Below are positions 21,981 through 38,656 of a stretch of 64,000 nt of DNA, piece by piece. The stretch is taken from positions 2,126,842 to 2,190,841 of the forward strand of contig NZ_CH724148.1 of NCBI RefSeq assembly GCF_000153225.1, read 5' to 3'. Under the pieces are notes generated by a model. That model did no database searches, had not been told where the DNA came from, and saw only the letters and a list, made by a program, of their open reading frames with translations. The DNA comes from Polaribacter irgensii 23-P. Its GTDB lineage: Bacteria; Bacteroidota; Bacteroidia; Flavobacteriales; Flavobacteriaceae. Within the stretch, counting starts at the first letter, position 1. Each line of letters opens with the position of its first letter. The translations under genes were made by a program, and so were the position numbers.

Positions 21981-22025
21981 AAATATTTTGCTTGTTTATA
22001 TTTTTTCGTTTTGGCGTGAAATATT

Positions 22026-22150
22026 ACGTGTTTGTTTATTGTTTTTTTCGTTGTTTAATTAACTCATTTAGTAAATAATTATCGACTAAGAAAGTTATAA
22101 AGTACTTCCACAAGTAGGCGATTACAAGCTATAAATCATATATGGTATTG
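22026..22150 (-). repeat. attC-like repeat 2
   Basis: The repeat lies between the helicase and PLD genes, about 125 bases. The block TTTAGTAAATAATTATCGAC, then CTAAGAAAGTTATAAAGTAC and the AAGTAGGCGATTACAAGC to ATATATGGTATTG end match repeat 1. The left end (ACGTGTTTGTTTATTG) is more diverged. It occupies nearly the whole spacer between the two genes. Confidence 0.6.
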
Positions 22151-22166
22151 AAAAATGTTATTATTC

Positions 22167-22898
22167 CTAAATTTCCATTTTTATTTCTTGTGGCCAAATA
22201 ACAAATTGTCCATATTGTCCTTCTTTTTCAATACCACCAAACTCTTTTCCTTTTTTAGTAGCAAACCAATCATCGTTCTTTTTATACATCAGGTTTTTGT
22301 CGACAAGAATAGAATTAATTTTCCTGCTACTTAATTCAGTTTCTTGAGATAATTCTTTTGTTGTTTTATAGTCAGATTTTGAAAAATCAGTTTTTGATTT
22401 AGCAGACTTTTTCGGACTATATTTTTTTTCCGATTGTAATACTTTTTGTGGTGCTTTTACATATGAAAAATCTTCGCTATTATGAATTATAGACTCAATA
22501 TCTTTTGTTGCGTCTTCATAAACTTTTCTGTCCTCTTCATCTTCCGTATCAATTAAAATTCCCATTTCTCGATTATTTACTTGAGAAAATTCGTAGAGGT
22601 TCATTGAAGCAATTATCATTTTATTTTCGTTCAAATAACATTTTGCGTGAAGATTTTTAGAGAAGTAAAGTCTTACGTATTTCAAGTCTTCTAAAAAGGC
22701 CATTTCAGTTGGTGCGAGTTCTTGCTTCCCAAAAATTATTCGGACATCAACTTTTTCTCTTTCTTTGTCATTTAGAAGTTCTTTAACTTGGTCAGAAAGT
22801 TTCAGATATGGACTAATTATATAAAGTTCTTTTCGTGCGTCTTTGATTAAATTTTCTAATTCAGCACTTATGCTTGAAGTTCTTAAGTATTTCGCCAT
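22167..22898 (-). CDS. PLD-family nuclease-like protein with C-terminal winged-helix-like tail
   Basis: A 243-residue protein. Residues 1-130 form a single phospholipase D-like domain: the motif HAKCYLNENKMIIASMN carries His 84, Lys 86 and Asn 100, the usual HxK(x)nN pattern. One HKD motif implies a dimer, as in Nuc-type endonucleases. A charged linker (about 150-180) leads to a small C-terminal domain with TTKELSQETELSSRKIN and FGGIEKEGQYGQFVIWP, resembling the winged-helix/DNA-binding tail seen on phage-type proteins. Probably a DNA- or RNA-acting nuclease. Flanked on both sides by attC-like repeats, as a single-gene cassette would be. Confidence 0.8.
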   Translation of the reverse strand: MAKYLRTSSISAELENLIKDARKELYIISPYLKLSDQVKELLNDKEREKVDVRIIFGKQELAPTEMAFLEDLKYVRLYFSKNLHAKCYLNENKMIIASMNLYEFSQVNNREMGILIDTEDEEDRKVYEDATKDIESIIHNSEDFSYVKAPQKVLQSEKKYSPKKSAKSKTDFSKSDYKTTKELSQETELSSRKINSILVDKNLMYKKNDDWFATKKGKEFGGIEKEGQYGQFVIWPQEIKMEI

Positions 22899-22928
22899 TT
22901 TTAATTTTAGTTATTTTTTTTAATGTTT

Positions 22929-23053
22929 TACAACGTCTTTGTATAACGCTAGTTGCTTGTTTTAAAGTTAGTAAATAAGACACAGATTTAAAGTCTGCGA
23001 GGACTTTCGTAAGTAGTCAAGAAGCTAGCGATAAATTATATACTTTGTTGTGG
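22929..23053 (-). repeat. attC-like repeat 3 (best preserved)
   Basis: The most symmetric copy. On the minus strand it begins CCACAACAAAGTATATAATT and ends GCGTTATACAAAGACGTTGT. Outer ends (ACAAC/GTTGT), GTATA/TATAC and CGCTAGC/CTAGCG can pair, and an inner hairpin AAAGTC-CTCGCA-GACTTT forms the loop. This is the architecture of an integron attC site: two paired end boxes around a longer folded middle. It fills the spacer between the PLD gene and the 106-aa gene. Confidence 0.7.
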
Positions 23054-23060
23054 CCAGTTT

Positions 23061-23381
23061 TTATTGTTCTAAAATTTCATCTCGTAAATTCTCTACAAGA
23101 TTTGAAACTTCACTACTCATTTTTTTGTAGCCACTTGTTATTTGTTCTTGGCTTTTATTTGCTAGGAAGAATAGTTTACTAGAAATTATAAAGAGTAATT
23201 TGGTTAAATCAGATTCTGTATCCAGCCTGTTATCCATTAGCCATCGTTCAATTGCATTTTTTGAAAGACCAGTAATCTCGTATTCAAATTTTGCACTATT
23301 TACTATTTTTATGACTTCTCTTTGAAGATCTATTCTATTACTAAATTCATTCATATTTTTCTTAATATTAATTGAAACCAA
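23061..23381 (-). CDS. Small protein paired with nucleotidyltransferase, unknown family
   Basis: A 106-residue, mostly helical, soluble protein. Its start lies inside the end of the nucleotidyltransferase gene (31-base overlap), so the two are translationally coupled. The helical pattern (DLQREVIKIVNSAKFEYEIT, then AIERWLMDNRLDTESDLTKL) shows no catalytic motif I can name. By analogy with MNT/HEPN pairs it may be a partner or antitoxin-like factor, but I do not see an Rx4-6H HEPN motif. An attC-like repeat follows immediately. Confidence 0.6.
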   Translation of the reverse strand: MVSINIKKNMNEFSNRIDLQREVIKIVNSAKFEYEITGLSKNAIERWLMDNRLDTESDLTKLLFIISSKLFFLANKSQEQITSGYKKMSSEVSNLVENLRDEILEQ

Positions 23382-23977
23382 TCTGAAATTATTTCAGTTT
23401 CTTTGAGTACTTCTTTTTTTTCTAAATCCGTAATTAACTTTCCTGAGCCTCTAGTGGATAATATCCTTGCTCTTTCTAATATTGCGAAACTATTCTTTGA
23501 AATATTAAGTTTGTCAAATTTTAAATTCAACGCGGACTTTCTTGAAAAATTAAAATCATTTAAATAGCCCAAAGAATAACACGAAGCAAAATTTCTTATT
23601 GAAAGAAATAACATAGATAAATCAAATATGTCAGAATGTTTAGAGTCTTTTAAGGACTCTATTGAATTATAAAACAAATTCGAAAATTTTTCTAAATCTA
23701 GTTTCATATTAGTATATGGATTTGGTTTCCCGAAATTTGCTAGAATATTTTCATTGTTGTCTGAATATATAAGTTTTGCTTCTTCAAATAAATGCCAAGC
23801 AAAAGGATTTCCTTCTTTCCATAATTCGAACATTCTTTTTTTTCTATAAACAGAAAATTTTTGAGTGTCAAATTGAGTATTGCTGTTTTCATTTACACCA
23901 ATAATTGCCAATAAATCAACATCTGAATATTTGTCAATTTCTCCTCTACATAAAGAACCAAATAAGTATATATCCAT
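23351..23977 (-). CDS. MNT-type nucleotidyltransferase
   Basis: A 208-residue protein beginning directly with the nucleotidyltransferase fold: YLFGSLCRGEIDKYSDVDLLAI (residues 4-25) contains the GSxxxG motif and the metal-binding DxD pair at 19 and 21. After about residue 100 the chain is helical (SMLFLSIRNFASCYSLGYL), as in kanamycin-nucleotidyltransferase-like or HEPN-like C-terminal domains. Proteins of this class are antitoxin partners in MNT-HEPN systems or modify small molecules. Overlapping 3' gene and 1-base gap to the upstream pentapeptide gene indicate one cassette of three genes. Confidence 0.8.
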   Translation of the reverse strand: MDIYLFGSLCRGEIDKYSDVDLLAIIGVNENSNTQFDTQKFSVYRKKRMFELWKEGNPFAWHLFEEAKLIYSDNNENILANFGKPNPYTNMKLDLEKFSNLFYNSIESLKDSKHSDIFDLSMLFLSIRNFASCYSLGYLNDFNFSRKSALNLKFDKLNISKNSFAILERARILSTRGSGKLITDLEKKEVLKETEIISDWFQLILRKI

Positions 23978-23978
23978 T

Positions 23979-24788
23979 TTAACGTTTATTAAATCTTTTT
24001 AATAGAATAGACATAAAAAGACCGAAGGCTATTATTCTCACAATAAATATGATACTTAAATATATATTAGAATAGTCATGAGGTTTTTCTATACTTAAGA
24101 AAATTTGAGGCATTTTAACAAAGGAACTCCAATAACTAGATATTTCGTTAAGATTACCAGAATAAGAAACATCAACAATAGTCATTACTACCCAAAATAA
24201 AAAAGCTGAACGAATTAGTTTTATTGTACTTTCTCCATTACCCCAAATAAATTCTTCCATTTTGAATCTAAACCAAGGGAAAAAAGCAAGAAATCTATTC
24301 CAGCCTCCGTATTTTTTTCGATAATAAGACTCATTAGATTTCCAGCGTTTCAATAAGTGGTGTTTTTTTGCGTCTAGTTCTATTTTAATTGCCTTATTAG
24401 TAGATTCTGCATCACCTAAACCTTGAAAATTTTTCCTTAAAGTTCTTGCGAACTTTAGTTTTAAATTAGAGTATCCTGGACAGCCAGAATCTAAAATCTC
24501 TTTATCAATTTGAGTATTTTGAAAAGTAGCATAATCAAAATTACAACCAACAAATGTTGAGCTTAAAAAATTTGAATTTATAAATTTACAACCATTAAAG
24601 TTGCAAGAATCAAATACACAGTTTCTAAAGTAGCAATGGTCAAAATAAGTATGACTGAAATCAATATTTTCATATCTGTCGGCTTTTGAACCTACTCTTA
24701 GAAAAAACTTATTATGGTAGTTTTCTTCGGTTATTGTGCCATCTATGATTTTATCGATAACTTGAATTCTTCCACTATCCTTTATCAT
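23979..24788 (-). CDS. Pentapeptide-repeat membrane protein
   Basis: A 269-residue protein. Residues about 42-100 are tandem pentapeptide repeats of the A(D/N)LXX type, visible as YFRNCVFDSCNFNGCKF and NFLSSTFVGCNF, which fold into a right-handed beta helix. A basic middle part (about 110-185) follows. The C-terminus has two membrane helices (about 190-207 and 240-262) and ends in a basic tail. Its start is the first gene of the run of minus-strand accessory genes. Membrane-anchored pentapeptide proteins occur in defence and stress loci; the function here is unknown. Confidence 0.75.
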   Translation of the reverse strand: MIKDSGRIQVIDKIIDGTITEENYHNKFFLRVGSKADRYENIDFSHTYFDHCYFRNCVFDSCNFNGCKFINSNFLSSTFVGCNFDYATFQNTQIDKEILDSGCPGYSNLKLKFARTLRKNFQGLGDAESTNKAIKIELDAKKHHLLKRWKSNESYYRKKYGGWNRFLAFFPWFRFKMEEFIWGNGESTIKLIRSAFLFWVVMTIVDVSYSGNLNEISSYWSSFVKMPQIFLSIEKPHDYSNIYLSIIFIVRIIAFGLFMSILLKRFNKR

Positions 24789-25695
24789 ACTTTTCCATTA
24801 TTTTATTATTCTTGATGTTTCTCTAATTGGCTACAATTAGGGTATAACAGCACCTTTTATCCGTATTTACCCACGTATTGAAACGATAGGCATACAAAAT
24901 GTTGCTGAATTGTTTCAATATCGGTTGTTTATGTTCGGTTAAAAATCTCATTTTTTTTGTTAATTATTGCCATCGGGTTGAATGCAACAAAATTATTTAT
25001 TTACAGTTCTTTTTTTATAGCTACTGAAAAAATTTCTTTTCCGTACCATAATGGTAACACCAAAAATTTAAGCGTTTATTCCGAATGAACAGCATCTTAA
25101 ACTTTGGGTATGTGTCAATAAAAAATTAATTAATTTTTAGAGAAGACTTGAAAGCACGCTAAGCTTTCCGATGAAAAGCCTGTGAAGTTTCTTGAATTCC
25201 TTTTAAATAGCCCTTAAATCTAAATAATTATTTTAAAATGACGTCATTTTTCGTTAATTAAAAAGTTTTTTATTCTAAACATTTAAGAATAACGTCTTTT
25301 TTGCGTGTTCATTTGTTTAGTGGGTGAGTGGTATACTTCTTTTTGAAGGGGATGGATTCATTTAATGTATTACTTCCGTAAAAGTGTAGTAAGTAATTCA
25401 AAATAAATTACTTATAATTTTATATTTTAATTATGAATAATAGAATGGAAGATTATTATAATTTTAATAAATGTTTTTTTAATGCCTAAAGTAAAGATTC
25501 CATAAAATTTTAACCACACCATTTTTTTTATTTAGATGTATTAAGAATTTATAAGGTATAACGGTTTTAAGTGCTCAAAAAATAGACTACATATTTTAAA
25601 GCTCATAAAATTGTTTAGAGAATTATTGTTAAAATGAATAAACAGGTGCATTTATTTATTTTTAACCTGGTTTAAAAATTAAAATTGAAAAAAAC
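24789..25695. other. Intergenic region beyond the cassette cluster
   Basis: About 900 bases without a gene. Near the left end there is a possible diverged right border of the repeat cluster (24835-24930). At 25235-25250 there is a perfect 16-base palindrome AAAATGACGTCATTTT. The rest is very AT-rich with no coding signal that I can support. Confidence 0.5.
24835..24930 (-). repeat. Possible diverged attC-like right border
   Basis: Plus-strand GGTATAACAGCA at the left and GTTGCTGAATTGTTTCAATA at the right can pair through CAGCA/TGCTG, and GTATAAC recalls the end of repeat 3. A TATTGAAAC/GTTTCAATA stem (24876-24884 and 24912-24920) lies inside. The similarity to the other copies is weak. It sits just upstream of the pentapeptide gene, where a cassette border would be expected. 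Confidence 0.3.
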
Positions 25696-25905
25696 ATGTT
25701 CGGATTATCAAGTTTACTCATGGAATTAAGTGGTAAAGGTATGTTTAGTTCTGTAGAATCTTTAGACTATCAAGCAATAAATAAAGACCATCTAGGAGAC
25801 ATTCAAGCAACCTGTAATAATCAAAAAATAATTGTTCAAGTTTTTACGGGAGATGATTATGATTCAGTAGCTAAGAAAATAATTCATACAGCGAATTTTG
25901 AGTAG
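25696..25905 (+). CDS. Small hypothetical protein, 69 aa
   Basis: A 69-codon frame with ATG and natural composition: FGLSSLLMELSGKGMFSS at the start, then an alternating strand/helix pattern to the C-terminus (IIVQVFTGDDYDSVAKKI). No signal, no membrane helix, no recognised family. It is isolated in AT-rich sequence, so it is either a real small gene or a chance frame; codon use favours a real one slightly. Confidence 0.4.
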   Translation: MFGLSSLLMELSGKGMFSSVESLDYQAINKDHLGDIQATCNNQKIIVQVFTGDDYDSVAKKIIHTANFE

Positions 25906-26248
25906 TTACTTTTCCAAAATGGGATGAAGTTAAAATATTATTGTATAATTGCAATATATAAATCTGTACTATAATGTTCTGCGTTATGTTACTTTGCTTT
26001 GGGTTAAAGCGAGATTAAATCTTCTTTTTTTTTCTTTCTAAATGTTTCTTAAAAAATGTAATGGAATACGCTTTTTACGAAACGACGATAAGAGTGTAGT
26101 GGAATGTGTGTGGAATGATTTTTAAATAACTAATATTTCCGATTTTTTCCTAAAGATATTCCAATAAATTTTAATTTATTATACTTGAATATTTTAAAAA
26201 TTATGGATGATTATTTATTTTATAAGTATGAATAGATTTGAAATCTAT
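25906..26248. other. Intergenic region with dispersed repeat
   Basis: About 340 bases, no gene. 26061-26136 repeats the order TACGCTTTTTACGA, GAGTGTAGTGG, TGTGTGGAATG seen at 13994-14076. 25961-25975 shares a 15-base string (AATCTGTACTATAAT) with the hairpin region at 40259-40273. Confidence 0.4.
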
Positions 26249-26629
26249 TTAACTAAAACATTCTTCACACGTTCCTTGAATTAATATTTGAGACACATCA
26301 ACTTTACAATTAGGAATAGTAGGAATGAGAACATCTGTGGATAAACATTCTACTTTTCCACAATCCGAACATTGAAAATGTGGATGAATATCATGATGTT
26401 CAGCGCTGGAGCAACCACTGCATTGCGCATACCATTTATGTCCGTTTTTACCCAAGAAAGAATGCAGAAAACCATCATCTTCTAGCTTGTCTAAAATACG
26501 ATATATTGTCGTTTTATTCATATTTAAATGAAAGCGTTCTATTAATGTAATCGCAGAAATAGCTGTTGATTGTTTTTCAAACTCATCAAGCAGTATTTTA
26601 ACTGATTTTGTTTTTCTTAAAATTCCCAT
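26249..26629 (-). CDS. Fur-family regulator, Zur-like (copy 1)
   Basis: A 126-residue Fur-superfamily repressor, probably the zinc-sensing Zur. An upstream ATG at 26674 is in frame, but the second (26629, MGILRKTK) fits the homologues and avoids a hydrophobic extension. The N-terminal winged helix has NMNKTTIYRILDKLEDDGFLH. The dimerisation/metal part has HKWYAQCSGC, HHDIHPHFQCSDCGKVEC and CEEC, i.e. the expected Cys pairs and His-rich site. It is divergent from merC with palindromic operators in between. The identical arrangement recurs at 31112-31492. Confidence 0.85.
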   Translation of the reverse strand: MGILRKTKSVKILLDEFEKQSTAISAITLIERFHLNMNKTTIYRILDKLEDDGFLHSFLGKNGHKWYAQCSGCSSAEHHDIHPHFQCSDCGKVECLSTDVLIPTIPNCKVDVSQILIQGTCEECFS

Positions 26630-26678
26630 TACACAAATATAGCTCAACTTAAAGGTAGTAAAAAATAAAATCATATTT

Positions 26679-26697
26679 AATGCAACTTTGTTGCATT
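26679..26697. promoter_or_regulatory. Zur operator-like palindrome (copy 1)
   Basis: AATGCAACTTTGTTGCATT has perfect 8-base arms AATGCAAC/GTTGCATT around TTT. It lies in the divergent zur-merC intergenic region and overlaps the position expected for the -33 element of the merC promoter. The same sequence occurs at 31542-31560. Confidence 0.65.
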
Positions 26698-26712
26698 AGT
26701 TATTAATAATAC

Positions 26713-26720
26713 TATATTTG
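26713..26720 (+). promoter_or_regulatory. Predicted -7 element (TAnnTTTG) of merC copy 1
   Basis: TATATTTG matches the Bacteroidota -7 consensus TAnnTTTG, 25 bases before the ATG at 26746. A TTTG at 26687-26690, inside the upstream palindrome, lies at a spacing suitable for the -33 element. Confidence 0.5.
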
Positions 26721-26733
26721 CAACTCAATTGCA
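26719..26733. promoter_or_regulatory. Second Zur operator-like palindrome (copy 1)
   Basis: TGCAACTCAATTGCA has arms TGCAA/TTGCA and starts in the -7 element of merC. In copy 2 the same position reads TGCAACTCAGTTGTA, a less perfect palindrome. Confidence 0.5.
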
Positions 26734-26745
26734 TTAAAGTAAATT

Positions 26746-27150
26746 ATGATATTGATAAAATATAAACCAGATAGTTTAGGAGCCATAGCAAGTACATTAT
26801 GTCTTTTGCATTGTATTGCTGCGCCTTTTATTTTTATAGTTCAGAGTTGTTCAATGGTTTGTTGTGATAGCGCACCTGTTATGTGGAGTTTTATAGACTA
26901 TTTCTTTTTAGTAGTTTCTTTTTTTGCTGTATATCGTTCTACACAAACAACTTCTAGTTATTGGATAAAACCTTTTTTATGATTAAGTTGGAGTGTATTA
27001 TTTATAATAATAATGAACGAAAAAATAGCATGGTTTCCTTTAAGTGAGCAAGCTATTTATTTTTCAGCACTTACATTGATAGTATTGCATCTTTACAATA
27101 AAAAATATTGCCAATGTAACAACAATAAATGCTGCACTAATGAAGGGTAA
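26746..27150 (+). pseudogene. merC-family gene, nonsense mutation
   Basis: Aligned to the intact copy at 31609-32013. The first 78 codons are intact (LGAIASTLCLLHCIAAPFIF, conserved Cys pair and membrane helices); then the Trp codon TGG of copy 2 is TGA here (26983 side). The downstream frame continues without indels to a stop at 27148-27150 (YCQCNNNKCCTNEG). A single base change therefore inactivates the gene. Overlaps the folE remnant by 11 bases just as the intact pair does. Confidence 0.85.
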
Positions 27151-27543
27151 AGAACAAATTCAAATAATAGGAGTTAATCATTTTTCAACAAGTATTAAAA
27201 CACCTTTACTTGCTGATGCCTTTGATAAATCAGATGATGAGAAAATTAAGAATATACAACATCATTTTAAAATGACCATGCAGGAGATGGGGCTAGATTT
27301 AACGGACGATAGTTTATCTGGAACTCCGTATCATGATGCAAAATGTATGTAAAAAAGTTGTTTTATGGATTGAATCCAGCTAATAAACCAAAACTTTCAA
27401 TATTTGAAAATAAGTACAGCTATAAAAAAATGCTGATTGAACAAAATATCACCATAGATTCTGCTTGTGAACATCACTTTTTACCAATAATCGGACATGC
27501 GAATGTAGCATACATTCCAAAAGACAGGGGCTGTAAGTTTTAA
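27140..27543 (+). pseudogene. folE: folE copy 1, frameshifted and truncated
   Basis: Residues 1-67 match the intact GTP cyclohydrolase at 32003-32668, then loss of one A in an A-run (4 instead of 5 near 27338-27342) shifts the frame. The second part resumes as MYVKKLFYGLNPANKPKLS with the Zn-site motif SACEHHFLPIIG. Similarity stops at YIPKD, about 270 bases before the end of the intact gene, and a stop follows. The missing tail includes the third zinc ligand, so no functional enzyme is expected. Confidence 0.85.
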
Positions 27544-27642
27544 TACTCATCTAGCACTAGAAAACAGTTCATAAATAGCCCGTCCTATAAGATGTAAAGT
27601 CAAGTAATACACTACCAAAACAATTTCCGAATGTCATTTAAA

Positions 27643-30057
27643 ATGAAACAACATTTTATAATATTAAACTTTTTATTCTTTGGGTCATCATTGCTTATAG
27701 CTCAAAAAGAAACATGCGGGTATTCCCTTAATGGAAAAGTATTAGATGCTTATACAGAAGAGCCTATTCCTAATGCTGTGATTAAAGTTAAGGGCATAGA
27801 AAGATACACCACCACCAGTGCTGAAGGTACTTTTAAAATCGATAATCTTTGTACAAAAAATAATATTCTTATTATTTCATGCTTAGGCTATACTAATTTG
27901 ATAGAAGACCATGAACACGATTCAGCCATACACTTTTATTTAACCCAAGAAGTTACAGGATTAAACGAAGTAATCATTCAAGCGAAACGAAGAAAAGAGA
28001 AAGGGACTGAAACAATTTCACAAGTTACGATTGGAAAGAAAGAAATTACCAGCAATCCAACCCAATCATTGGCGGCAGTCCTGTCACAGCAACAAGGAGT
28101 AACATTTATGTCAACCGGAACCAATGTGCAATTACCTGTTATTCATGGTTTGTATGGGAATCGAATCCTGGTATTGAATAATGGTCTAAAACATGGCTTT
28201 CAAAATTGGGGTGCCGATCATGCCCCAGAAATAGACATTGCTTCAACAAACAGCATCACTGTGGTCAAGGGGGCAGTTGGCGTGCGATATGGCCCTGAAG
28301 CTTTGGGGGGTGCTATTATTATTGAGCCCAATCCATCACTTTTAAACAATCCATTTTATGCAGCTTTAGGCACAGGCTACCAAACCAATGGCAAAGGCTA
28401 CAACACTAATTTTGAAATTGGAAATGGAACTGAAAATTGGAGCTATTTTGCAAATGGAAATTATACTAGAATTGGTGATCGCAACACACCAGGTTATAAT
28501 TTGACTAATTCTGGCAAAGAAGAAAAAGCATTTAGTTTTGGCATTTTGCACCACCTAGATACATGGGATTTTAAGGTGAACTATAGCTTTGTTGACCAGA
28601 AATTAGCACTATTGCGCGCTTCTATCGCTAATAGTCCAGATTCGTTTATTCGTGCCATTAATTCAAATGAACCTATTATTATTAATCCTCTTTCCTTTGA
28701 TATCAATCAACCCAACCAAAAAACCCAACATCATTTGGCGAAGGCAGAAATTAATTGGTGGTACACCAAAGGGGCAAAGCTTACCCTAATTGTTGGTGTG
28801 CAATTAAACAAAAGAGATGAATTTGATGTACGGAGAAATGCCGAGCTACCTATTATTAATCTCGATTTGCTCACCTATGACTATCAATTGGAATGGAAGC
28901 ATCCTAAATGGCATGGATTAAATGGTTTGCTCGGTGCTCAATATTTTAGTCAAAATAACGATAATAACCCAGGTACCCAGACCACTCCATATATCCCCAA
29001 CTACAATACGGATAGGGTTAGTGCTTTTGCGGTTGAAAGCTTAACATTTGGAAAAAATATGATTGAAGCGGGGTTACGGTTTGATTTAGAAACCAATGAT
29101 GTTCGAGGTAGGGAAATCAATCAAGATATTTTTAGAGACAACTATACCTTCACTAATTTTACTGGATCATTAGGCTACGTTCGGCAACTTTCTGAAAATA
29201 GCACTTTTAGAACAAATATAGGAACTGCATGGCGCACCCCAAATATGGAAGAACTGTTCAGTTTTGGACAGCATGGGTTTAAAACAACCTTTGGCTTGCT
29301 AAGATTCAAAGACACCAATGGTAAATTGAGTACCGATGAAGTGATCCCTTTAAATCAAAGTACTGTGAATCCAGAACGAGGATATAAATTCATCAACGAA
29401 TTTCAGACCAATAAAAATGGAAATAGCCATAACCTAACAGTGTATTCACATTTTATAGAAAATTACGTTTTTGATCGGCCTATTGGAGTTTTCGGAACAA
29501 TACGGGGCCCAATGCCTGCATTTATTTTCGATCAGGTTGATGCGCTTTTCTTTGGCGCAGATTACAGTTGGAAAAAAGAATGGACCGATAAAGTTTCGAG
29601 TATTTTTGGAGCAAGCTATTTATGGTCTAGAAATGTAGGTGATAATGCTCCCTTAATCAACCAACCACCGATTTCGACAACTATTGAACTGAAATGGAAT
29701 CAAGGTAAAGTAGGTTTCTTTGATTCCTCTAGATGGTCTATTCGCCCTAGTTATACCTTTCGACAATCTCAAGCGCCGCGTACAATTACACCCCAAAGCT
29801 TGGTCGATGGGTCTGTGGAGCTGACAACAAGCTCTGAAATATTTGACTTTGCAGCCGCAAATGATGGCTATTTTCTACTGGACTTATCATGGACCTTTAA
29901 AAGGAAAAACCTTAGTGGAGGTATTACCGTTCAAAACCTATTGAATACCAGGTATCGAGACTACCTGAACGAAATGCGCTATTTCGCCAACGAATCTGGT
30001 AGAAATTTACTTTTTACACTCAAATATACACTTAAAAAAAATGCTAAAAATGAATAG
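27643..30057 (+). CDS. TonB-dependent receptor, probably zinc uptake
   Basis: An 804-residue receptor starting at ATG 27643 (an in-frame ATG at 27631 is less likely; the signal peptide then begins cleanly at MKQHF). Signal peptide to about AQ (21), carboxypeptidase-regulatory-like domain to about 105, plug about 115-235 with LPVIHGLYGNRILVLNNG and VVKGAVGVRYGPEALGGAI, beta barrel to the C-terminus. Plug and barrel are reminiscent of ZnuD-type zinc/haem receptors. It follows the zur/merC/folE copy and is followed by a lipoprotein, so zinc is the likely cargo. Its sequence is GC-richer than its neighbours (about 45% in a stretch counted by eye against about 33% in folE), hinting at separate acquisition. 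Confidence 0.82.
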   Translation: MKQHFIILNFLFFGSSLLIAQKETCGYSLNGKVLDAYTEEPIPNAVIKVKGIERYTTTSAEGTFKIDNLCTKNNILIISCLGYTNLIEDHEHDSAIHFYLTQEVTGLNEVIIQAKRRKEKGTETISQVTIGKKEITSNPTQSLAAVLSQQQGVTFMSTGTNVQLPVIHGLYGNRILVLNNGLKHGFQNWGADHAPEIDIASTNSITVVKGAVGVRYGPEALGGAIIIEPNPSLLNNPFYAALGTGYQTNGKGYNTNFEIGNGTENWSYFANGNYTRIGDRNTPGYNLTNSGKEEKAFSFGILHHLDTWDFKVNYSFVDQKLALLRASIANSPDSFIRAINSNEPIIINPLSFDINQPNQKTQHHLAKAEINWWYTKGAKLTLIVGVQLNKRDEFDVRRNAELPIINLDLLTYDYQLEWKHPKWHGLNGLLGAQYFSQNNDNNPGTQTTPYIPNYNTDRVSAFAVESLTFGKNMIEAGLRFDLETNDVRGREINQDIFRDNYTFTNFTGSLGYVRQLSENSTFRTNIGTAWRTPNMEELFSFGQHGFKTTFGLLRFKDTNGKLSTDEVIPLNQSTVNPERGYKFINEFQTNKNGNSHNLTVYSHFIENYVFDRPIGVFGTIRGPMPAFIFDQVDALFFGADYSWKKEWTDKVSSIFGASYLWSRNVGDNAPLINQPPISTTIELKWNQGKVGFFDSSRWSIRPSYTFRQSQAPRTITPQSLVDGSVELTTSSEIFDFAAANDGYFLLDLSWTFKRKNLSGGITVQNLLNTRYRDYLNEMRYFANESGRNLLFTLKYTLKKNAKNE

Positions 30058-30161
30058 AAAAAAGCTAGCTAGGTATAAGTCTATGCCTAGCAGAGGACCT
30101 TAAATTTTAAAGATTTATAGATAGTACCGTTTAATAAAAATAAAACAATTAGAACAAAAAG

Positions 30162-30785
30162 ATGAAAACAATAAATCCATTTAAAAATTTACAATTATTA
30201 GCAATTTTATTTTCAGTTATTACAATTATTGGTTGTAGTAATGATGATGATATTGCACCGGAAGAAGAAAACGAAATAGAAGTAATTACAGATGTTACCC
30301 TTATTTTTACGAATACGGCTGATGTAAACGATGTAATAAGAGCTTCCGCTCAAGATCCAGACGGAACAGGTATACAAGAATTACAGATTTTAGGTGCTAT
30401 TACACTTGCTGCCGATACCGAATATACATTAACCTATGAAATTCTAAATAAATTAGATCCAGCAGACTCTGAAGATATTGGTGATGAAATTCTTGAGGAA
30501 GATAATGAGCATCAGTTCTTCTTTAGTTTTACAGTAAATGTCTTTGCCAATCCTATCGGAAACGGGAATATAGATGCAGCTGCAGATCCAATAAATTACA
30601 ACGATGAGGATGAAAATGGGAACCCTGTTGGTTTGTCTAGCACTTGGACAACTTCTAGTACAGCATCTTCTGGAGCATTATTTACCGTTAGGCTTCAGCA
30701 CCAACCAGATGTGAAAACAGCTACATCGGGTTCTAATGATGGTGATACTGATTTTGCATTGACCTTTGACTTGAATATTCAATAA
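30162..30785 (+). CDS. Acidic lipoprotein, receptor-associated
   Basis: A 207-residue lipoprotein: signal peptide with lipobox IIGC (about Cys 25) followed by SNDDD and a Glu/Asp-rich linker. The body is beta-rich and strongly acidic (EEDNEHQFFF, YNDEDENGNP), without a family I recognise. It follows the TonB receptor by about 100 bases, which is the usual place for a surface lipoprotein that helps deliver the receptor's substrate. The acidic patches could bind metal ions, but that is only an inference. Confidence 0.7.
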   Translation: MKTINPFKNLQLLAILFSVITIIGCSNDDDIAPEEENEIEVITDVTLIFTNTADVNDVIRASAQDPDGTGIQELQILGAITLAADTEYTLTYEILNKLDPADSEDIGDEILEEDNEHQFFFSFTVNVFANPIGNGNIDAAADPINYNDEDENGNPVGLSSTWTTSSTASSGALFTVRLQHQPDVKTATSGSNDGDTDFALTFDLNIQ

Positions 30786-30801
30786 CCAATTTTTGTGTTT
30801 G

Positions 30802-30845
30802 ATCTCCCAGCTTGTTCGCTGTAAACTAGCCTGGGAGATTTTTTA
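30802..30845 (+). terminator. Terminator after the receptor/lipoprotein genes
   Basis: ATCTCCCAG against CTGGGAGAT (30802-30810 and 30831-30839) with a 20-base loop, followed by six T. It ends the TonB receptor/lipoprotein unit before the second zur copy. Confidence 0.8.
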
Positions 30846-31111
30846 TGTCATAGCTTCGCAGCATGTCTTGTGCTGTTAAATAGTGCCCAAATGCGATATT
30901 CCTCTAATTGTTATAAAATGTACTTTAATTTATAGTATTGCAAAGTGAAAATTTAATGTTTTTGGGGCTTTATAAGAAAAAGTAAAAGCTAAAAAAGGGC
31001 TTGTTATATTTGAAAATTATTTAAGAGTTACTGAAATAATTTTCTTTTATGTAATTTTTAATCACTTACAAAATTATTTAATTTATAAATAGTAAGGGGT
31101 ATTAAATTTAT

Positions 31112-31492
31112 TTAACTAAAACATTCTTCACACTTACCTTGAATTAATATTTGAGACACATCAACCTTGCGATTAGGAATATTAGGTATCAAAACATCTG
31201 TTGGTAAACAATCTACTTTTCCACAATCTAGACATTGAAAATGTGGATGAATATCATGATGTTCAACATTAGTGCAACCAATACATTTCGCATACCATTT
31301 ATGTCCGTTTTTACCTAAAAACGAATGAAGAAAACCATCATCTTCTAGCTTGTCTAAAATACGATATATTGTCGTTTTATTCATATTTAAATGAAAGCGT
31401 TCTATTAATGTAATCGCAGAAATAGCTGTTGATTGTTTTTCAAACTCATCAAGCAGTATTTTAACTGATTTTGTTTTTCTTAAAATTCCCAT
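31112..31492 (-). CDS. Fur-family regulator, Zur-like (copy 2)
   Basis: A 126-residue Zur-like repressor; the start at 31492 (MGILRKTK) is preferred over an in-frame ATG at 31537. The first about 80 residues are identical to copy 1. In the metal-binding half several residues differ (KCIGCTNVEHHD, CLDCGKVDC), but all Cys/His ligands are kept: C-x2-C near 76-79, HHDIHPHF, C-x2-C and the terminal CEEC. Two functional paralogues may sense metal at different thresholds. Divergent from merC. Confidence 0.85.
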   Translation of the reverse strand: MGILRKTKSVKILLDEFEKQSTAISAITLIERFHLNMNKTTIYRILDKLEDDGFLHSFLGKNGHKWYAKCIGCTNVEHHDIHPHFQCLDCGKVDCLPTDVLIPNIPNRKVDVSQILIQGKCEECFS

Positions 31493-31541
31493 TACACAAA
31501 TATAGCTCAACTTAAAGGTAGAAAAAAATAAAATCATATTT

Positions 31542-31560
31542 AATGCAACTTTGTTGCATT
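31542..31560. promoter_or_regulatory. Zur operator-like palindrome (copy 2)
   Basis: AATGCAACTTTGTTGCATT, identical to 26679-26697, in the zur-merC intergenic region. A TATATTTG element follows at 31576-31583, and a weaker palindrome TGCAACTCAGTTGTA at 31582-31596 starts in it, 27 bases before the merC ATG. Confidence 0.65.
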
Positions 31561-31608
31561 AGTTAATAATAATACTATATTTGCAACTCAGTTGTATTAC
31601 ATTAAATT

Positions 31609-32013
31609 ATGATATTTATAAAACAAAAACCAGACAGTATAGGAGCCATAGCAAGTGCATTGTGTCTTCTACATTGTATTGCTACACCCTTTATTTTTAT
31701 AGCCCAAAGTTGTTCATTGGTTTGTTGTGAAAAAGTACCTACTTGGTGGAGTTTTATAGACTATTTCTTTTTGGTAATTTCTTTTTTTGCTGTATACCGT
31801 TCTACACAAACAACATCTAATTATTGGATAAAACCTTTTTTATGGTTGAGTTGGACTGTGTTGTTAATAATAATAATCAATGAAAAAATAGCATGGTTTC
31901 CTTTAAGTGAACAAGCTATTTATTTTCCAGCACTTACATTAATACTATTACATCTTTACAATAAAAAATATTGTCAATGCAACATTACTAAATGCTGTAC
32001 TAATGAAAGATAA
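31609..32013 (+). CDS. MerC-family membrane protein
   Basis: A 134-residue protein with four membrane helices and the MerC hallmarks: SALCLLHCIATPFIF (Cys pair in the first helix), a second Cys group SCSLVCCE and a Cys-rich C-terminus (YCQCNITKCCTNE). MerC proteins transport Hg(II), but in this zinc-regulated setting without mer genes it is more likely to handle zinc or another soft metal. Overlaps folE by 11 bases. First gene of the long zinc operon. Confidence 0.78.
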   Translation: MIFIKQKPDSIGAIASALCLLHCIATPFIFIAQSCSLVCCEKVPTWWSFIDYFFLVISFFAVYRSTQTTSNYWIKPFLWLSWTVLLIIIINEKIAWFPLSEQAIYFPALTLILLHLYNKKYCQCNITKCCTNER

Positions 32014-32668
32014 TGAGCAAATTGAAATAACAGGTAACAACCATTTTTCAACAAGTATTAAAACACCTTTACGTGCTGATGCTTTTGACAAATCTGATGA
32101 TGAAAAAATTAAAAATATTCAACATCATTTTGGTAAAATCATGGAAGAATTAGGGTTAGACCTAACAGATGATAGTTTATCTGGAACTCCTTATCGTTTT
32201 GCAAAAATGTATGTAAAAGAACTGTTCTATGGATTAAATCCTGCAAATAAGCCAAAATTATCAGTATTTATTAATAAATATAGTTACAAAAAAATGTTGG
32301 TGGAACAGAATATCACTATAGATTCTGCTTGTGAACATCATTTTCTACCAATAGTTGGTTTTGCAAATGTGGCGTATATTCCTAAAGATAAAGTGATTGG
32401 TTTATCAAAAATAAATCGACTGGTAGATTATTATGCACGCAGACCACAAGTGCAAGAAAGATTGGTTTTACAAATTTTAAATGATTTGCAAGATGTTTTA
32501 GAAACTAAAGATGTTATTGTTTCTATAACTGCAAAACACCTTTGCGTTTCTTCAAGAGGCATTAAAGATCAAAGTAGTTTTACCACAACATTAGAATATG
32601 GAGGCTGTTTTTCGGAAAGCGAATACAGAAATGAGTTTTTAAAAATAATTGCACAACAATCAATATAA
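32003..32668 (+). CDS. folE: GTP cyclohydrolase I (FolE), zinc-operon paralogue
   Basis: A 221-residue enzyme that converts GTP to 7,8-dihydroneopterin triphosphate for folate/pterin synthesis. The zinc ligands are all present: Cys 110 and His 113 in SACEHHFLPIVG, and Cys 181 in KHLCVSSRG (numbers coincide with the E. coli enzyme). IPKDKVIGLSKINRLVDYYARRPQVQERL is the conserved substrate-binding stretch. Full length for the family. Its place in a Zur-type operon is noteworthy, since the usual zinc-sparing enzyme is the unrelated FolE2; this copy still looks metal-dependent, perhaps using another metal or being boosted to capture scarce zinc. Confidence 0.92.
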   Translation: MKDNEQIEITGNNHFSTSIKTPLRADAFDKSDDEKIKNIQHHFGKIMEELGLDLTDDSLSGTPYRFAKMYVKELFYGLNPANKPKLSVFINKYSYKKMLVEQNITIDSACEHHFLPIVGFANVAYIPKDKVIGLSKINRLVDYYARRPQVQERLVLQILNDLQDVLETKDVIVSITAKHLCVSSRGIKDQSSFTTTLEYGGCFSESEYRNEFLKIIAQQSI

Positions 32669-32674
32669 AATAGT

Positions 32675-34357
32675 ATGGAATATAGCAGAAGAAAATTCAT
32701 CTCCTTGATAGGAAAAGCAAGTTTGGGATCGCTTATTTTACCTCAATTTTTAATGAGTTGTGGCAATACTGCAAATCCAACAACAAGTTTTAATTCAACT
32801 TCTGAAGAACGATTAATCGAACTAAAAAATTTGGTTTTAAAAGGTTTATTGCCTTCTGATAAAGATGATTTAGTATTGGCAAATGGTTTAAATTATCACA
32901 CCGTTATAAAATGGGGCGATAAAATTAGCGACACAGATACCTTTGGTTTTAATAACGATTTTAATTGTTTTATTCCTTTTGATGATGATAATCCAAAAGA
33001 CGGTTTGTTGTGGGTAAATCATGAATATATTAATCCGCTTTTTGTTTCTGATTTTAATTATAGAGATTATGAAAACCCATCAGAATATAGAACTATTGCT
33101 CAAGTTGATAAAGAAATGTACAATGTTGGTGGCAGTATTGTAAGAATTAATGAAGAAAATGGGCAATGGAAAATTGTTGAAAATGATCCTCATAACAGAC
33201 GTATTACTGCAAAAACACCAATGCAAATAAATTGGGATACACCAATTAAAGGAAAAACGATTTTTATAGGAACGCATAGCAATTGTTCTGGGGGAATTAC
33301 ACCTTGGAAAACCTTTTTAACTTGCGAAGAAAACTACGATAGTTATTTTGGCGAAACCGAATATGATGAAGAAAATGTTGCAAGACACAGACCAAGTAAA
33401 AGTGGTTGGGAGAGTTTTTACGATTATCCTCCAGAACATTATGGTTGGGTTGTAGAAGTGAATCCAAAAGATGGTAAAGCACAGAAACATATTGCTTTGG
33501 GTAGATTTGCACACGAATGTTGTACGTTGTATGAATTGGCAGATAAAAGAGTAGTTGCTTACACAGGAGATGACCATAATAGCGAACATCTGTATAAATT
33601 TATCTCCTCTAAACCAAGTTCTTTAAAAGAAGGGACTTTGTATGTTGCAGATACTGTTAACGGAAAATGGTTGGCATTAGATTGGGTAAATCAACCTATT
33701 TTAAAAGAGAAATTTAAAGATCAAACAGAGGTGCTAATTAGAGCAAGAGAAGCTGCAAAATTGCTGGGAGCAACTCCATTAAACAGACCAGAAGATATAG
33801 AAATTGACCCTATAACAGGTAATATTTTTGTTTCATTAACCAACAATTATATTACAAAAGATTTTCACGGTTTTATTTTAAAAATCGAAGAAAAAAACGG
33901 TGCTTTTGATGCGTTAACCTTTAAAGCAGAAACCTATAAAGCTGGTGGAGAAGAAAACGGATTTTCGTGTCCAGATAATTTGGCTTTTGATTTATCTGGC
34001 AATCTTTGGATGACTTCTGATATGTCTGGAAGTGCTATGAATAAAGAAGGCAAACCTTATATGCCTTTTAAAAATAACAGTTTATTTGTAATTCCTAGAT
34101 TAGGCAAAGATGCTGGAAAAGTTATTCGTGTTGCTTCTGCACCAAAAGATGCAGAATTGACAGGTCCCTGGTTTTCACCAGATGGTAAAACCTTGTTTTT
34201 AAGTGTGCAACATCCAGGAGAGCAATCTAAAGATTTAGAGAATTTAACAAGTAAATGGCCTTTTGATGAAGATAATATTCCTAAACCAGCTGTGGTTGCC
34301 ATTACTGGAGATTTAATTGAAAAAATGAATAAGCTAAACCAAATAGAAGTTTCATAA
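32675..34357 (+). CDS. PhoX-family alkaline phosphatase (DUF839)
   Basis: A 560-residue exported phosphatase. The N-terminus has a Tat signal (SRRKFISLIG) followed by a lipobox-like LMSC (Cys 29). The body is a PhoX/DUF839 beta propeller with TFLTCEENYDSYFG, GRFAHECC, YTGDDHNSEHLYKF and RPEDIEIDPITGNIFVSLTNN, i.e. the metal-ligand regions. PhoX uses calcium and iron rather than zinc, so it can replace zinc-dependent PhoA under zinc shortage; that fits its place in a Zur operon. 6 bases after folE. Confidence 0.85.
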   Translation: MEYSRRKFISLIGKASLGSLILPQFLMSCGNTANPTTSFNSTSEERLIELKNLVLKGLLPSDKDDLVLANGLNYHTVIKWGDKISDTDTFGFNNDFNCFIPFDDDNPKDGLLWVNHEYINPLFVSDFNYRDYENPSEYRTIAQVDKEMYNVGGSIVRINEENGQWKIVENDPHNRRITAKTPMQINWDTPIKGKTIFIGTHSNCSGGITPWKTFLTCEENYDSYFGETEYDEENVARHRPSKSGWESFYDYPPEHYGWVVEVNPKDGKAQKHIALGRFAHECCTLYELADKRVVAYTGDDHNSEHLYKFISSKPSSLKEGTLYVADTVNGKWLALDWVNQPILKEKFKDQTEVLIRAREAAKLLGATPLNRPEDIEIDPITGNIFVSLTNNYITKDFHGFILKIEEKNGAFDALTFKAETYKAGGEENGFSCPDNLAFDLSGNLWMTSDMSGSAMNKEGKPYMPFKNNSLFVIPRLGKDAGKVIRVASAPKDAELTGPWFSPDGKTLFLSVQHPGEQSKDLENLTSKWPFDEDNIPKPAVVAITGDLIEKMNKLNQIEVS

Positions 34358-34372
34358 ATATTTAGAATAAAA

Positions 34373-35572
34373 ATGAAAAAATTACCTGTAACAGTTTTAA
34401 GTGGTTTTCTTGGCGCTGGAAAAACAATATTATTAAATCACGTTTTGCATAACAAAAAAGGCTTAAAAGTAGCTGTTATTGTAAATGATATGAGTGAAGT
34501 AAATATAGATGCTCAATTTATAGAAAATGAAAATACACTTTCTAGAACTGAAGAAAAACTGGTAGAAATGTCTAATGGTTGTATTTGTTGCACACTTCGT
34601 GAGGATTTAATGATTGAGGTAGAAAAATTGGCTTTGCAAAATAAATTCGATTATTTGCTGATAGAAAGTACTGGAATTAGTGAGCCTATTCCTGTTGCAC
34701 AAACCTTTACTTTCGAAAGTGAAGATGGTAAAATAGATTTAAGCAGATTTAGCTATGTAGATACAATGGTTACTGTTGTTGACGCTTTTAACTTTTTGAA
34801 AGATTTTTCTAGTTCAGATTACTTAACCACAAGAGAACTAACAAATATTGATGGTGATAATAGAACTATCGTAAATCTATTAACAGACCAAATTGAGTTT
34901 GCCAATGTTATTTTGCTGAATAAAATAGATTTGGTTTCAGAAGATCAGTTGGAAGAATTACAAGCGATTATTGGTAAATTGAATCCTGAAGCTAAAATTA
35001 TTACTACAAATGAATCTAAAGTAGCTTTAGAAAATGTGCTAAATACTGGTTTATTTAATTATGAAAAAGCAGAAGCTTCTGCCGGTTGGATTAAGGAATT
35101 AGAAAATGAACACGTGCCAGAGACAGAAGAATATGGCATCAGTTCTTTTGTGTTTAGAAGTAAAAAACCATTTCATCCAGAGCGTTTTTTAAATTATTTG
35201 AATGAGGCTTTTCCGCAAAATATTATAAGAAGTAAAGGGTTGTTTTGGTTAGCATCAAGATCTGAACAAGCTTTACTTTGGAGTTCTGCAGGTGGTTCTT
35301 GCAAGGCAGATTCTGCAGGAGTTTGGTGGGCGTCTATGTCTTTTTCAGAACGTAGCAATTATGCTTCTTTTGTAGAAAATCAAAAACAAATAGAAACAGA
35401 TTGGGATATTATTTTTGGCGATAGAAAAATAGAATTGGTTTTTATTGGACAACATTTAGACAAAGAAGGAATGATTACTCAATTAAATAAATGTCTACTT
35501 ACAGAGGAAGAAATTAAGTTGTGGAAAAATAAATCATTCACACAAAAAGATCAATGGCCTATAGCAGTTTAA
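34373..35572 (+). CDS. COG0523 GTPase, zinc metallochaperone-like
   Basis: A 399-residue CobW/COG0523 G3E GTPase. Walker A GFLGAGKT at 11-18, the metal-binding CxCC motif GCICC at 69-73 (Cys 70, 72, 73), Walker B-like IESTGISEP near 100, and NKID at about 183-186. The C-terminal CobW_C domain has SKKPFHPERFLNYL. Zur-regulated COG0523 proteins (ZigA/YeiR/ZNG1-type) deliver zinc to essential enzymes during starvation; one known client is methionine aminopeptidase. 15 bases after the phosphatase gene. Confidence 0.9.
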   Translation: MKKLPVTVLSGFLGAGKTILLNHVLHNKKGLKVAVIVNDMSEVNIDAQFIENENTLSRTEEKLVEMSNGCICCTLREDLMIEVEKLALQNKFDYLLIESTGISEPIPVAQTFTFESEDGKIDLSRFSYVDTMVTVVDAFNFLKDFSSSDYLTTRELTNIDGDNRTIVNLLTDQIEFANVILLNKIDLVSEDQLEELQAIIGKLNPEAKIITTNESKVALENVLNTGLFNYEKAEASAGWIKELENEHVPETEEYGISSFVFRSKKPFHPERFLNYLNEAFPQNIIRSKGLFWLASRSEQALLWSSAGGSCKADSAGVWWASMSFSERSNYASFVENQKQIETDWDIIFGDRKIELVFIGQHLDKEGMITQLNKCLLTEEEIKLWKNKSFTQKDQWPIAV

Positions 35573-35601
35573 ATAAGAGAGTGGTTTTTATAAAATTTAG
35601 A

Positions 35602-36231
35602 ATGATACAAACAGAGAATCTTACCTATCAATATAAAAAAAGAGGGGCTATTTTAAGTTTTCCAAATATCGCTTTAGAGAAAGGAAAAAATTTACTCATT
35701 TTAGGAGAGTCAGGTATTGGAAAAACAACACTTTTACATCTTTTGGCGGGTTTATTAAAACCAGTTACAGGAAATGTATTTATTGATAATACAGATTTAA
35801 ATGCTTTAAAAAGTAACAAACTGGATAAATTTAGAGGTAAAAACATAGGGCTTGTTTTTCAAAAAAAACACGCTATAGTATCTTTAAACGTGTTTAATAA
35901 TTTAAAAGCACGTCTTTTGTTTAGTAATGCTCTTGTACACAATAAAAAGATTGAAATCGTATTAAAACAATTGGGCCTGTCTGAACTTAAAAAAAATAAA
36001 ATTAGCGAGCTTAGTGAAGGGCAATTGCAACGATTAGGAATTGCATTATCCGTTATACATAATCCAAAAGTTCTTTTAGCTGATGAACCAACTTCAAGTT
36101 TAGATGATAAAAACTGTAAAATTGTTATTAAATTGCTGAAAAATCAGGCGAAACAAACCAATGCCAATTTAATAGTGATTACGCATGACCATAGAATCAA
36201 ATCATTTTTCCAAAATTCAATTACATTATGA
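35602..36231 (+). CDS. ABC transporter ATPase, MacB/LolD-type
   Basis: A 209-residue ATPase starting at ATG 35602 (an upstream ATG at 35554 overlaps the previous gene and adds an unlikely basic extension). Walker A GESGIGKT near 36-43, signature LSEGQLQRLGIALS, Walker B VLLADEPTSSLDD, switch His in VITHDH. Partner permease overlaps by 4 bases. The trio ATPase, FtsX-like permease and DUF3299-like protein matches the Zur-controlled PA4064-PA4066 genes of Pseudomonas aeruginosa, so a zinc-linked role is likely although the transported substrate is not known. Confidence 0.85.
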   Translation: MIQTENLTYQYKKRGAILSFPNIALEKGKNLLILGESGIGKTTLLHLLAGLLKPVTGNVFIDNTDLNALKSNKLDKFRGKNIGLVFQKKHAIVSLNVFNNLKARLLFSNALVHNKKIEIVLKQLGLSELKKNKISELSEGQLQRLGIALSVIHNPKVLLADEPTSSLDDKNCKIVIKLLKNQAKQTNANLIVITHDHRIKSFFQNSITL

Positions 36232-37439
36232 ATATTTGGATTATTAGCATACAAAACATAAAATCTAAACCATTATACACTTTTTTAAGTGTTTTTATAT
36301 TATCCATAAGTATAGCTTTGCTTTTGGGAATTCAACAATTAAAAAGGTCTTTTGAAAATCAAATAGAAAACAATTTAGGTAAGATAGATGTAGTGGTTGG
36401 TGCTAAAGGAAGTCCATTACAGCTTGTTTTGGCTTCGGTATTACATTTAGACAATCCCACAGGGAATATTTCATACAATGAAGCACTTAAAATAAGCAAA
36501 AACCCTCTTATTAAGTTTGCCGTTCCAATTTCTTATGGCGATAATTATAAAGGTTTTAGAATTGTAGGAACAACCCCCGAATATATTGCTCTTTATGACG
36601 GTGAGTTAGAAAAAGGACACCCTGTTGAAAATGCGATGGAAGTAATTTTAGGGAATTCTGTAGCTCGAAAATTAAACCTTAAAATAGGAGATACCCTATT
36701 AAGTTCTCACGGATTAGTAGAAAATAGTATTGAAGAACACGATGATTTGTTAATTGTAGTGGGTATTTTAAAACCTACACAAAAAGTAATAGACCGCTTA
36801 ATCGTTACTAATTTAGAAAGTGTATGGTATGTGCATGATCACGGTGGGGAAGTAAATTATGAAAGACATGATGATAACAAAAGACATGGTGAAAAAGAAA
36901 TAACATCACTATTAATTAATTTTAAAAGCCCAAGAGGACTGTTGCCATTTCTTAGGCGTATTAACAAGCGAACTAATATGCAAGCTTCCTTGCCTAAATA
37001 CGAGTTACATAAATTGTATGAAAATACAAGTATTGGCTTTAAAACTATTTCTTTGATAGCTTATTTAATTCTTGTAATTTCTTGTATTACAATATTTATA
37101 AGTCTTTATAAAATGGTTAAAGAACGTGCTTTTGATTTGGCTATTTTACGAACTTATGGAGCAAGTAATTTTCAATTGATGAAAATGGTTTTTTATGAAG
37201 GATTGATCGTAGCCTTTTCTTCATTCTTACTTGGGTTTTTACTACTAAAAATAGGGTTAGGTTTTATGTTTCATTTTATGGAATATAACGATCAACAAAA
37301 CATGCTTCAAGAGTCGCTTTTTCAAGATGTATTGCAAATAGGAGCCCTAATTTTAATGATGGTCATTGTATCCGTTTCATTAGCTATATATCCAATCATA
37401 AAAATGAACATATCAACAATTTTAAGCAATGAGAAATAA
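36228..37439 (+). CDS. ABC transporter permease, FtsX/MacB-type
   Basis: A 403-residue permease with an N-terminal helix (about 14-34), a periplasmic MacB_PCD-like domain (about 40-270) and three C-terminal helices (about 278-300, 328-350, 370-390), the classic FtsX layout. The periplasmic part is His- and Asp-rich (YVHDHGGEVNYERHDDNKRHGEKE at about 200-225), a possible metal-binding loop that fits the zinc context. Overlaps the ATPase gene by 4 bases and the next gene by 11. Confidence 0.85.
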   Translation: MNIWIISIQNIKSKPLYTFLSVFILSISIALLLGIQQLKRSFENQIENNLGKIDVVVGAKGSPLQLVLASVLHLDNPTGNISYNEALKISKNPLIKFAVPISYGDNYKGFRIVGTTPEYIALYDGELEKGHPVENAMEVILGNSVARKLNLKIGDTLLSSHGLVENSIEEHDDLLIVVGILKPTQKVIDRLIVTNLESVWYVHDHGGEVNYERHDDNKRHGEKEITSLLINFKSPRGLLPFLRRINKRTNMQASLPKYELHKLYENTSIGFKTISLIAYLILVISCITIFISLYKMVKERAFDLAILRTYGASNFQLMKMVFYEGLIVAFSSFLLGFLLLKIGLGFMFHFMEYNDQQNMLQESLFQDVLQIGALILMMVIVSVSLAIYPIIKMNISTILSNEK

Positions 37440-37866: not shown

Positions 37867-37908
37867 AGCTAATTTTATATTTTATAATTACCAGTTAATA
37901 TCAACTTA

Positions 37909-38655: not shown

Positions 38656-38656
38656 G

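Follow-up and report, generated by a model that had tools for sequence, protein, structure and literature searches.

Two gene sets and a receptor pair

The stretch of Polaribacter irgensii 23-P analysed here (64,000 nucleotides of contig NZ_CH724148.1, hereafter the window) carries two copies of a divergent gene set in which a Fur-family regulator gene (zur) faces merC and folE, the latter coding for GTP cyclohydrolase I. Between the copies lie genes for a TonB-dependent receptor and a small lipoprotein-like partner, and the second copy heads a longer island that ends at 39568. When aligned, copy 1 (26246-27529) and copy 2 (31109-32393) are 87.7% identical over 1285 alignment columns, 158 of which are mismatches or gaps; they run in the same direction, share the same left edge and are spaced by 4863-4864 positions.

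A preliminary description of this DNA had recognized the same divergent genes in both segments, a Trp-to-stop change in merC and a shifted, truncated folE in copy 1, and two intact regulator genes, all of which stands. The merC1 pseudogene (26746-27144, + strand) reads TGA, a stop, at 26980-26982 in place of the TGG of copy 2, and the open reading frame (ORF) that closes with this stop spans 26746-26982 and codes for 78 residues. The folE1 remnant (27140-27529, + strand) has lost one base near 27340, where AAAA stands against AAAAA in copy 2 and a second ORF opens in the shifted frame; its 3' part is missing, homology to folE ending at about 27529 after the residues YIPKD. Their counterparts in copy 2 are intact, namely merC2 (31609-32013, + strand; PF03203 at 74 bits) and folE2 (32003-32668, + strand; NF006824 at 267 bits, cut-off 202). 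Both regulators are open and code for 126 residues each, zur1 at 26249-26629 (- strand; PF01475 at 35 bits, cut-off 23.1) and zur2 at 31112-31492 (- strand; PF01475 above the cut-off). In all, the host genome contains three matches to the Fur family, these two included.

The merC1 lesion, which affects W79, was sought in five other merC genes and is not shared by them: four that had been flagged for a stop (L010, L013, L017 and L021) terminate at their natural stop, and the fifth (L022) has a frameshift of its own. The host genome has a further intact folE at 2604814, outside the island, and the loss of folE1 was therefore without obvious cost. Fragments of folE with stops or split frames occur also at G000:C1:1474419-1474622 and G156:C6:222501-222999, and, given these, decay of surplus folE copies may not be limited to this locus.

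Comparison with a sister genome

Among 19 genomes compared by rpoB, all of which carry merC, the genome designated G156 is the sister of the host (support 100/99), with an rpoB synonymous divergence (dS) of 0.70. The merC tree places copy 1, but not copy 2, beside G156 (support 99/95), and in the folE tree, 14 of whose 20 inner branches are weak, copy 1 again falls with G156 (support 94/90). Copy 1 (26256-27529) is 90.8% identical to G156 265441-266716, and the receptor block (27528-30938) is 90.9% identical to G156 276205-279607. The corresponding value is 84.4% for copy 2 (31119-32670 with 265441-266993) and 80.8% for the remainder of the island that it heads (32681-39569 with 268028-274905); to the right of 40442 there are three longer matches of 74-78% identity. 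Likewise, dS to G156 is 0.24 for the C-terminal part of zur1, 0.14 for merC1, 0.14-0.19 for folE1, 0.26-0.34 for the receptor and 0.155 for the lipoprotein-like gene, as opposed to 0.89-2.91 for 12 flanking genes and 1.0-2.8 for folE2, phoX and cobW. Because its dS to G156 lies so far below that of the flanking genes, and given the trees, copy 1 is a xenologue, forming with the receptor pair one acquired piece beside a resident island headed by copy 2.

These comparisons bear directly on the tandem duplication of zur-merC-folE with subsequent decay of one copy, as which the locus had first been described. The adjacency, common direction, shared left edge and 87.7% identity of the copies all favor such an origin, and the decay is indeed confined to merC1 and folE1. 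However, copy 1 is nearer to G156 than to copy 2 in both merC and folE, the copy-to-copy dS of folE is 1.0 or saturated, and the receptor pair has the same low distance to G156 as copy 1; moreover, one would not expect a pseudogene to change at a lower rate than the intact copy. We accordingly regard a local duplication as highly improbable.

G156 holds the island as a single unit, in which two small genes, phoX, cobW, a transporter, nucleotidase-like genes and a second COG0523 gene separate folE from the receptor, and positions 26256-30938 of the window correspond to a 91%-identical version of this unit that lacks one 9.5-kb block. The junction falls at 27523-27529, where G156 has about 9.48 kb (approximately 266717-276203) and GAC is common to both ends. 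In G156 the receptor is preceded by a Zur-like box (1 mismatch) and by TACTTTTG, both within the part missing in the window; thus, relative to G156, the Zur box and -7 element that belonged to the receptor were lost with the deleted block. The claim that a GC-richer TonB receptor follows copy 1 holds for its composition (37.4% GC versus 32.9% for the window) but needs to be recast as regards its position, since the receptor is fused to copy 1 by this deletion rather than merely following it. The receptor's GC at third codon positions (GC3, 0.31) lies inside the range of the 12 flanking genes (0.27-0.37); the AT-rich genes are the seven examined from the native island (GC3 0.17-0.22).

The receptor gene (27631-30057, + strand; PF00593 and PF07715 over their cut-offs; 89-91% nucleotide identity to G156) is an intact ORF of 808 codons with a dN/dS to G156 of about 0.13-0.29. 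It scores 56.4 bits with the curated ZnuD model, whose cut-off is 950, and a search of solved structures returned six distinct sequences, all OprC (E 4e-5 to 1.5e-4), which give no metal assignment. The search of the genus (166 genomes, at most six candidates scored in each) found relatives in 2 at E 1e-120, and that of 397 genomes sampled out of the larger family (at most two scored in each) found them in 7 at 1e-100, the host's own genome being included in both counts. The adjoining gene for the small partner (30162-30785, + strand; 93.7% nucleotide identity to G156), which also neighbors the receptor at loci L210 and L214, has no match in Pfam or NCBIfam, and the label 'lipoprotein-like' reflects our reading of its N-terminus.

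The conversion tract, the operators and the two regulators

Identity between the two copies is very uneven. A run of 193 identical bases at 26466-26658 was reached in none of 20000 shuffles, the largest shuffled run being 101, and it forms part of a longer tract (26466-26727) that is identical to copy 2 at 260 of 262 positions, whereas the other three blocks of the alignment are 12-20% different. The tract comprises the start and N-terminal half of zur1, the -7 elements of both genes, the whole of Zur box 1 and the left portion of box 2. Inside it copy 1 matches G156 at 223 of 263 positions (84.8%) as against 941 of 1024 (91.9%) outside (Fisher p 0.0009), while copy 2 remains at about 85% both inside (225/263) and outside (866/1024). 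Copy 1 is thus less G156-like in the tract while copy 2 is constant, so the copy 1 sequence here was replaced by that of copy 2. The copy-to-copy dS of zur is 0.03 in the N-terminal part and 0.43 in the C-terminal part, so that silent sites are included; since these are nearly identical here while zur of G121 varies in the same part (dS 0.23-0.27), protein-level selection alone would be insufficient. Most simply, then, gene conversion from copy 2 appears to have rewritten the DNA-binding half of zur1 together with the operator-promoter core. Ectopic gene conversion between linked paralogues leaves long identical tracts within otherwise diverged copies; here, by contrast, donor and recipient are xenologues, and the tract coincides with a regulator's DNA-binding half and its operator.

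An assembly chimera of two strains can scarcely be credited. The host genome (2.76 Mb in 2 contigs) is 99.08% complete with 0.51% contamination, the locus lies on a contig of 2.75 Mb, and the copies are 12% different; moreover, simple mis-joining would not yield both a conversion tract and a deletion junction.

A scan for TAnnTTTG, reported as the sigma-A -7 consensus of Flavobacterium psychrophilum (PMC9723704), places a zur1 -7 element TATATTTG at 26634-26641 (- strand) and a merC1 -7 element TATATTTG at 26713-26720 (+ strand), the latter being the sole strict occurrence on the + strand within 26691-27650. An alternative, longer zur1 ORF runs to 26674, but we prefer the MGIL start, as the -7 element stands immediately before it. 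Copy 1 has Zur box 1 at 26680-26696 (1 mismatch to ATGCAACTNAGTTGCAT) and box 2 at 26718-26734 (2 mismatches), and the pattern also matches in copy 2 at 31543-31559 (box 1) and 31581-31597 (box 2). Box 2 of copy 1 overlaps the merC1 -7 element, as would be expected of a repressor site. Allowing up to two mismatches, the whole genome contains five box sites, each copy holding two and a trpF-like (PRAI) gene the fifth, while the reversed control pattern has no site at the same stringency; the four sites in the window exceed all of 100 shuffles. Paired ATGCAACTnAGTTGCAT-like boxes recur in many zur-merC intergenic regions among the matches listed.

The 11 differences between Zur1 and Zur2 all fall in residues 69-120: the DNA-binding halves are identical and the remaining halves differ at 11 of 71 positions, K69Q and R108C included. 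Hence, of the proposal that the organism keeps two Zur paralogues, the two intact regulators stand but simple divergence of paralogues does not. Both retain C70, C73, H78, H82, H84, C87, C90, C95, C121 and C124, belonging to the conserved Cys/His set by which Fur-family proteins bind metal, and these residues are near-invariant in an alignment with 63 further Zur sequences, one of which (L215) may be copy 1 of the window itself. With the curated Zur model NF008646, zur1 scores 21.5 bits against a cut-off of 167 and zur2 is not listed; the name Zur therefore rests on context. That zinc is the signal is suggested by the neighbors (a ZigA-like GTPase, MerC and an extra FolE) and by general knowledge of Zur regulons.

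Both regulators might have been kept for their differing sensing halves, so that a single DNA target is read at different zinc thresholds, for which the identical DNA-binding halves and the 11 differences elsewhere could be adduced; on the other hand, the conversion may be neutral and the two proteins do not differ in their conserved Cys/His set, and we consider this explanation unlikely. Just as doubtful is an extension of it, in which homo- and heterodimers with different zinc set-points read one set of boxes and conversion keeps the Zurs and their operators in step. Were that so, one divergent promoter would feed the receptor and the other the inner-membrane and chaperone genes.

Taken together, the locus is probably the product of an island acquisition, a deletion and a conversion, as a result of which the receptor operon has come under the control of zur1 and its operators, with merC1 and folE1 reduced to a dead leader. 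We posit that the starting point was a resident zinc-uptake (Zur-type) island, consisting of copy 2 and everything up to 39568, beside which horizontal exchange would have placed a related island from a G156-like lineage. The deletion of about 9.5 kb in the newcomer would then have joined the truncated folE1 to the receptor and its lipoprotein-like partner, stripping the receptor of its Zur-boxed promoter in the same stroke. As a consequence, the merC1 promoter, with its two Zur boxes and the divergent zur1, most likely drives the receptor pair by read-through, so that the pair would be repressed when zinc is plentiful and expressed when it is scarce. In this leader merC1 and folE1 would be dispensable because copy 2 encodes both, while selection would presumably keep zur1. 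Conversion from copy 2 would have rewritten the DNA-binding half and operators of copy 1, and consequently both Zur proteins should recognize the same boxes. Of this, the xenology of copy 1, its deletion with respect to G156, the converted tract and the positions of the boxes are seen directly in the sequence, whereas the zinc signal, the read-through into the receptor, the selection on zur1 and the order of events are inferred. In promoter capture by deletion, a downstream gene is brought under a regulated promoter lying upstream of it; in this instance, unlike the usual case, the captured promoter appears to be of the same regulon as the lost one.

A less probable variant accepts the same acquisition but sees in copy 1 a relic, with the receptor silent or otherwise promoted and zur1 intact merely for lack of time. 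The broken merC1 and folE1 and the changes of zur1 at two conserved positions are in line with this, but the receptor ORF is intact with a low dN/dS, zur1 has retained all its conserved Cys and His residues, and the promoter and boxes are present.

Several points weigh against the rewiring that we favor. First, the receptor start lies about 900 nucleotides downstream of the merC1 promoter, after two broken frames, and polarity across these could silence it; further, the -7 scan used the strict consensus only, and a weaker promoter nearer the receptor is therefore possible. Second, four relatives of the receptor (L209-L212) have no Zur-like box at up to three mismatches within about 1.5 kb on each side, although boxes are present at two others (L213 and L214), and the Zur link of this receptor type is therefore not universal. 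Third, Zur1 deviates from the consensus at K69Q and R108C. Fourth, parts of copy 2 (dS to G156 of 0.27 for merC2 and 0.39 for the C-terminal part of zur2) and the ABC ATPase, permease and small-protein genes (0.42-0.47) also fall under the flanking values; the resident island has therefore exchanged DNA too, and the term 'native' would best fit folE2, phoX, cobW and the nucleotidase genes. Finally, the G156 genome is 69% complete with 3% contamination, and frameshifts affect both its zur (one) and its receptor (two) at L168/L169 (G156:C1:265441-278730), which may reflect decay of its own island or sequence errors; a third-party donor to both G156 and the host is also possible.

Related loci and a proposed rewiring of metal uptake

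The rest of the native island (32675-39568, + strand) contains a PhoX-like gene (32675-34357; Pfam PhoX), a ZigA-like COG0523 GTPase (34373-35572; Pfam CobW), which at 565.1 bits comes close to but stays under the cut-off of 600 of the curated ZigA model, an ABC ATPase followed by an FtsX/MacB-type permease (36228-37439; Pfam ABC transporter and FtsX/MacB permease), and a small protein with two 5'-nucleotidase-like genes, all on the + strand. To its right, 34 bp at 40262-40295 (+ strand) recur unchanged in G156 behind the lipoprotein-like gene, and a related short AT-rich stretch (30919-30938) ends the acquired piece. The tRNA scan of the window found none, an Rfam search of 24500-41000 with E up to 1 gave no match, and a comparison of zur2 with plasmids gave 13 records, all below 60% identity (28-34% for the ten listed), and so no close plasmid source.

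The tandem array is bordered on its left by a non-coding directional repeat (25955-26130, + strand) of about 170 bp, with a second match in the window at 9369-9430 and similar sequences in 81 of the 166 genus genomes, at loci including L101, L105, L227-L235 and L237. At least two scored matches, some only fragments and often 2-15 kb apart, occur in 36 of the 81; these counts are lower bounds, as four first-look candidates were scored per genome. Of 25 loci examined, 13 hold at least two copies, which are co-oriented in all 13. In G106 (L101) and G111 (L105) successive copies flank a merC island whose regulator is only 28-31% alike, and the repeat may mark a region of exchangeable cassettes. 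Folded as single-stranded DNA, the left repeat has a z of -1.18, with 30 of 200 shuffles equally good. Another copy lies about 100 bp from a zur remnant without its first 23-27 codons at L036, apparently the start of contig C139 of G004, a genome with no merC match. Further left (20010-24788) are genes for a Schlafen-type helicase, a PLD-domain protein, a nucleotidyltransferase with a small partner and a pentapeptide-repeat protein, possibly a defence or toxin-antitoxin patch.

Within the genus, 67 of 166 genomes carry merC and 58 carry zur of the island type, and 48 of 60 zur matches sit at most 400 bp from a merC match; this last count used all 60 zur and 68 merC matches and excludes five weak merC ones (in G104, G099 and G059, the third of G065 and the second of G120). 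G120 (L171:6564-10951) has a second zur, divergent from a merC stub of 32 matched codons and separated from it by two boxes with three mismatches each; behind the stub come genes for a small protein, an ABC ATPase and a TonB receptor. This is a separate case of a zur-merC promoter joined to a receptor operon. In G116 zur faces an ABC ATPase and a TonB receptor, and G424, which belongs to a different genus, has a distantly related Fur-family gene (34% to Zur1) opposite merC, a receptor and a lipoprotein-like gene. G089 is another reshuffled island, with two merC genes about 19 kb apart (L099, L100), the first next to a broken COG0523 gene and with no adjacent folE, and zur on another contig.

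Among described systems, the Zur regulon of Caulobacter crescentus (PMC4176598) likewise couples a Zur-type regulator to an outer-membrane receptor and transport genes; here, by contrast, the receptor seems to have gained its Zur promoter via a deletion in an acquired island, its regulation being predicted from the arrangement. The Zur-linked COG0523/folE clusters described by Haas et al. (2009, PMC2770081) similarly combine a COG0523 GTPase with an additional GTP cyclohydrolase gene in the vicinity of predicted Zur boxes, but the flavobacterial island differs in its MerC, PhoX-like and FolE-type (PF01227) components and in its box ATGCAACTnAGTTGCAT; a term search of the main text of PMC2770081 gave no occurrence of 'Bacteroid'. 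A literature search over partial listings, with most subscription journals outside, recognized no paper on the island, the box or the event.

This single locus would thus illustrate how a metal-uptake circuit can be rewired, through the arrival of a foreign island, an apparent promoter-swapping deletion and a gene conversion that would keep two mutually foreign regulators matched to the same boxes. The apparent decay of merC1 and folE1 would then be a side effect of this rewiring, rather than marking the end of copy 1, an idea that the arrangements in G120, G116 and G424 make testable by comparison.

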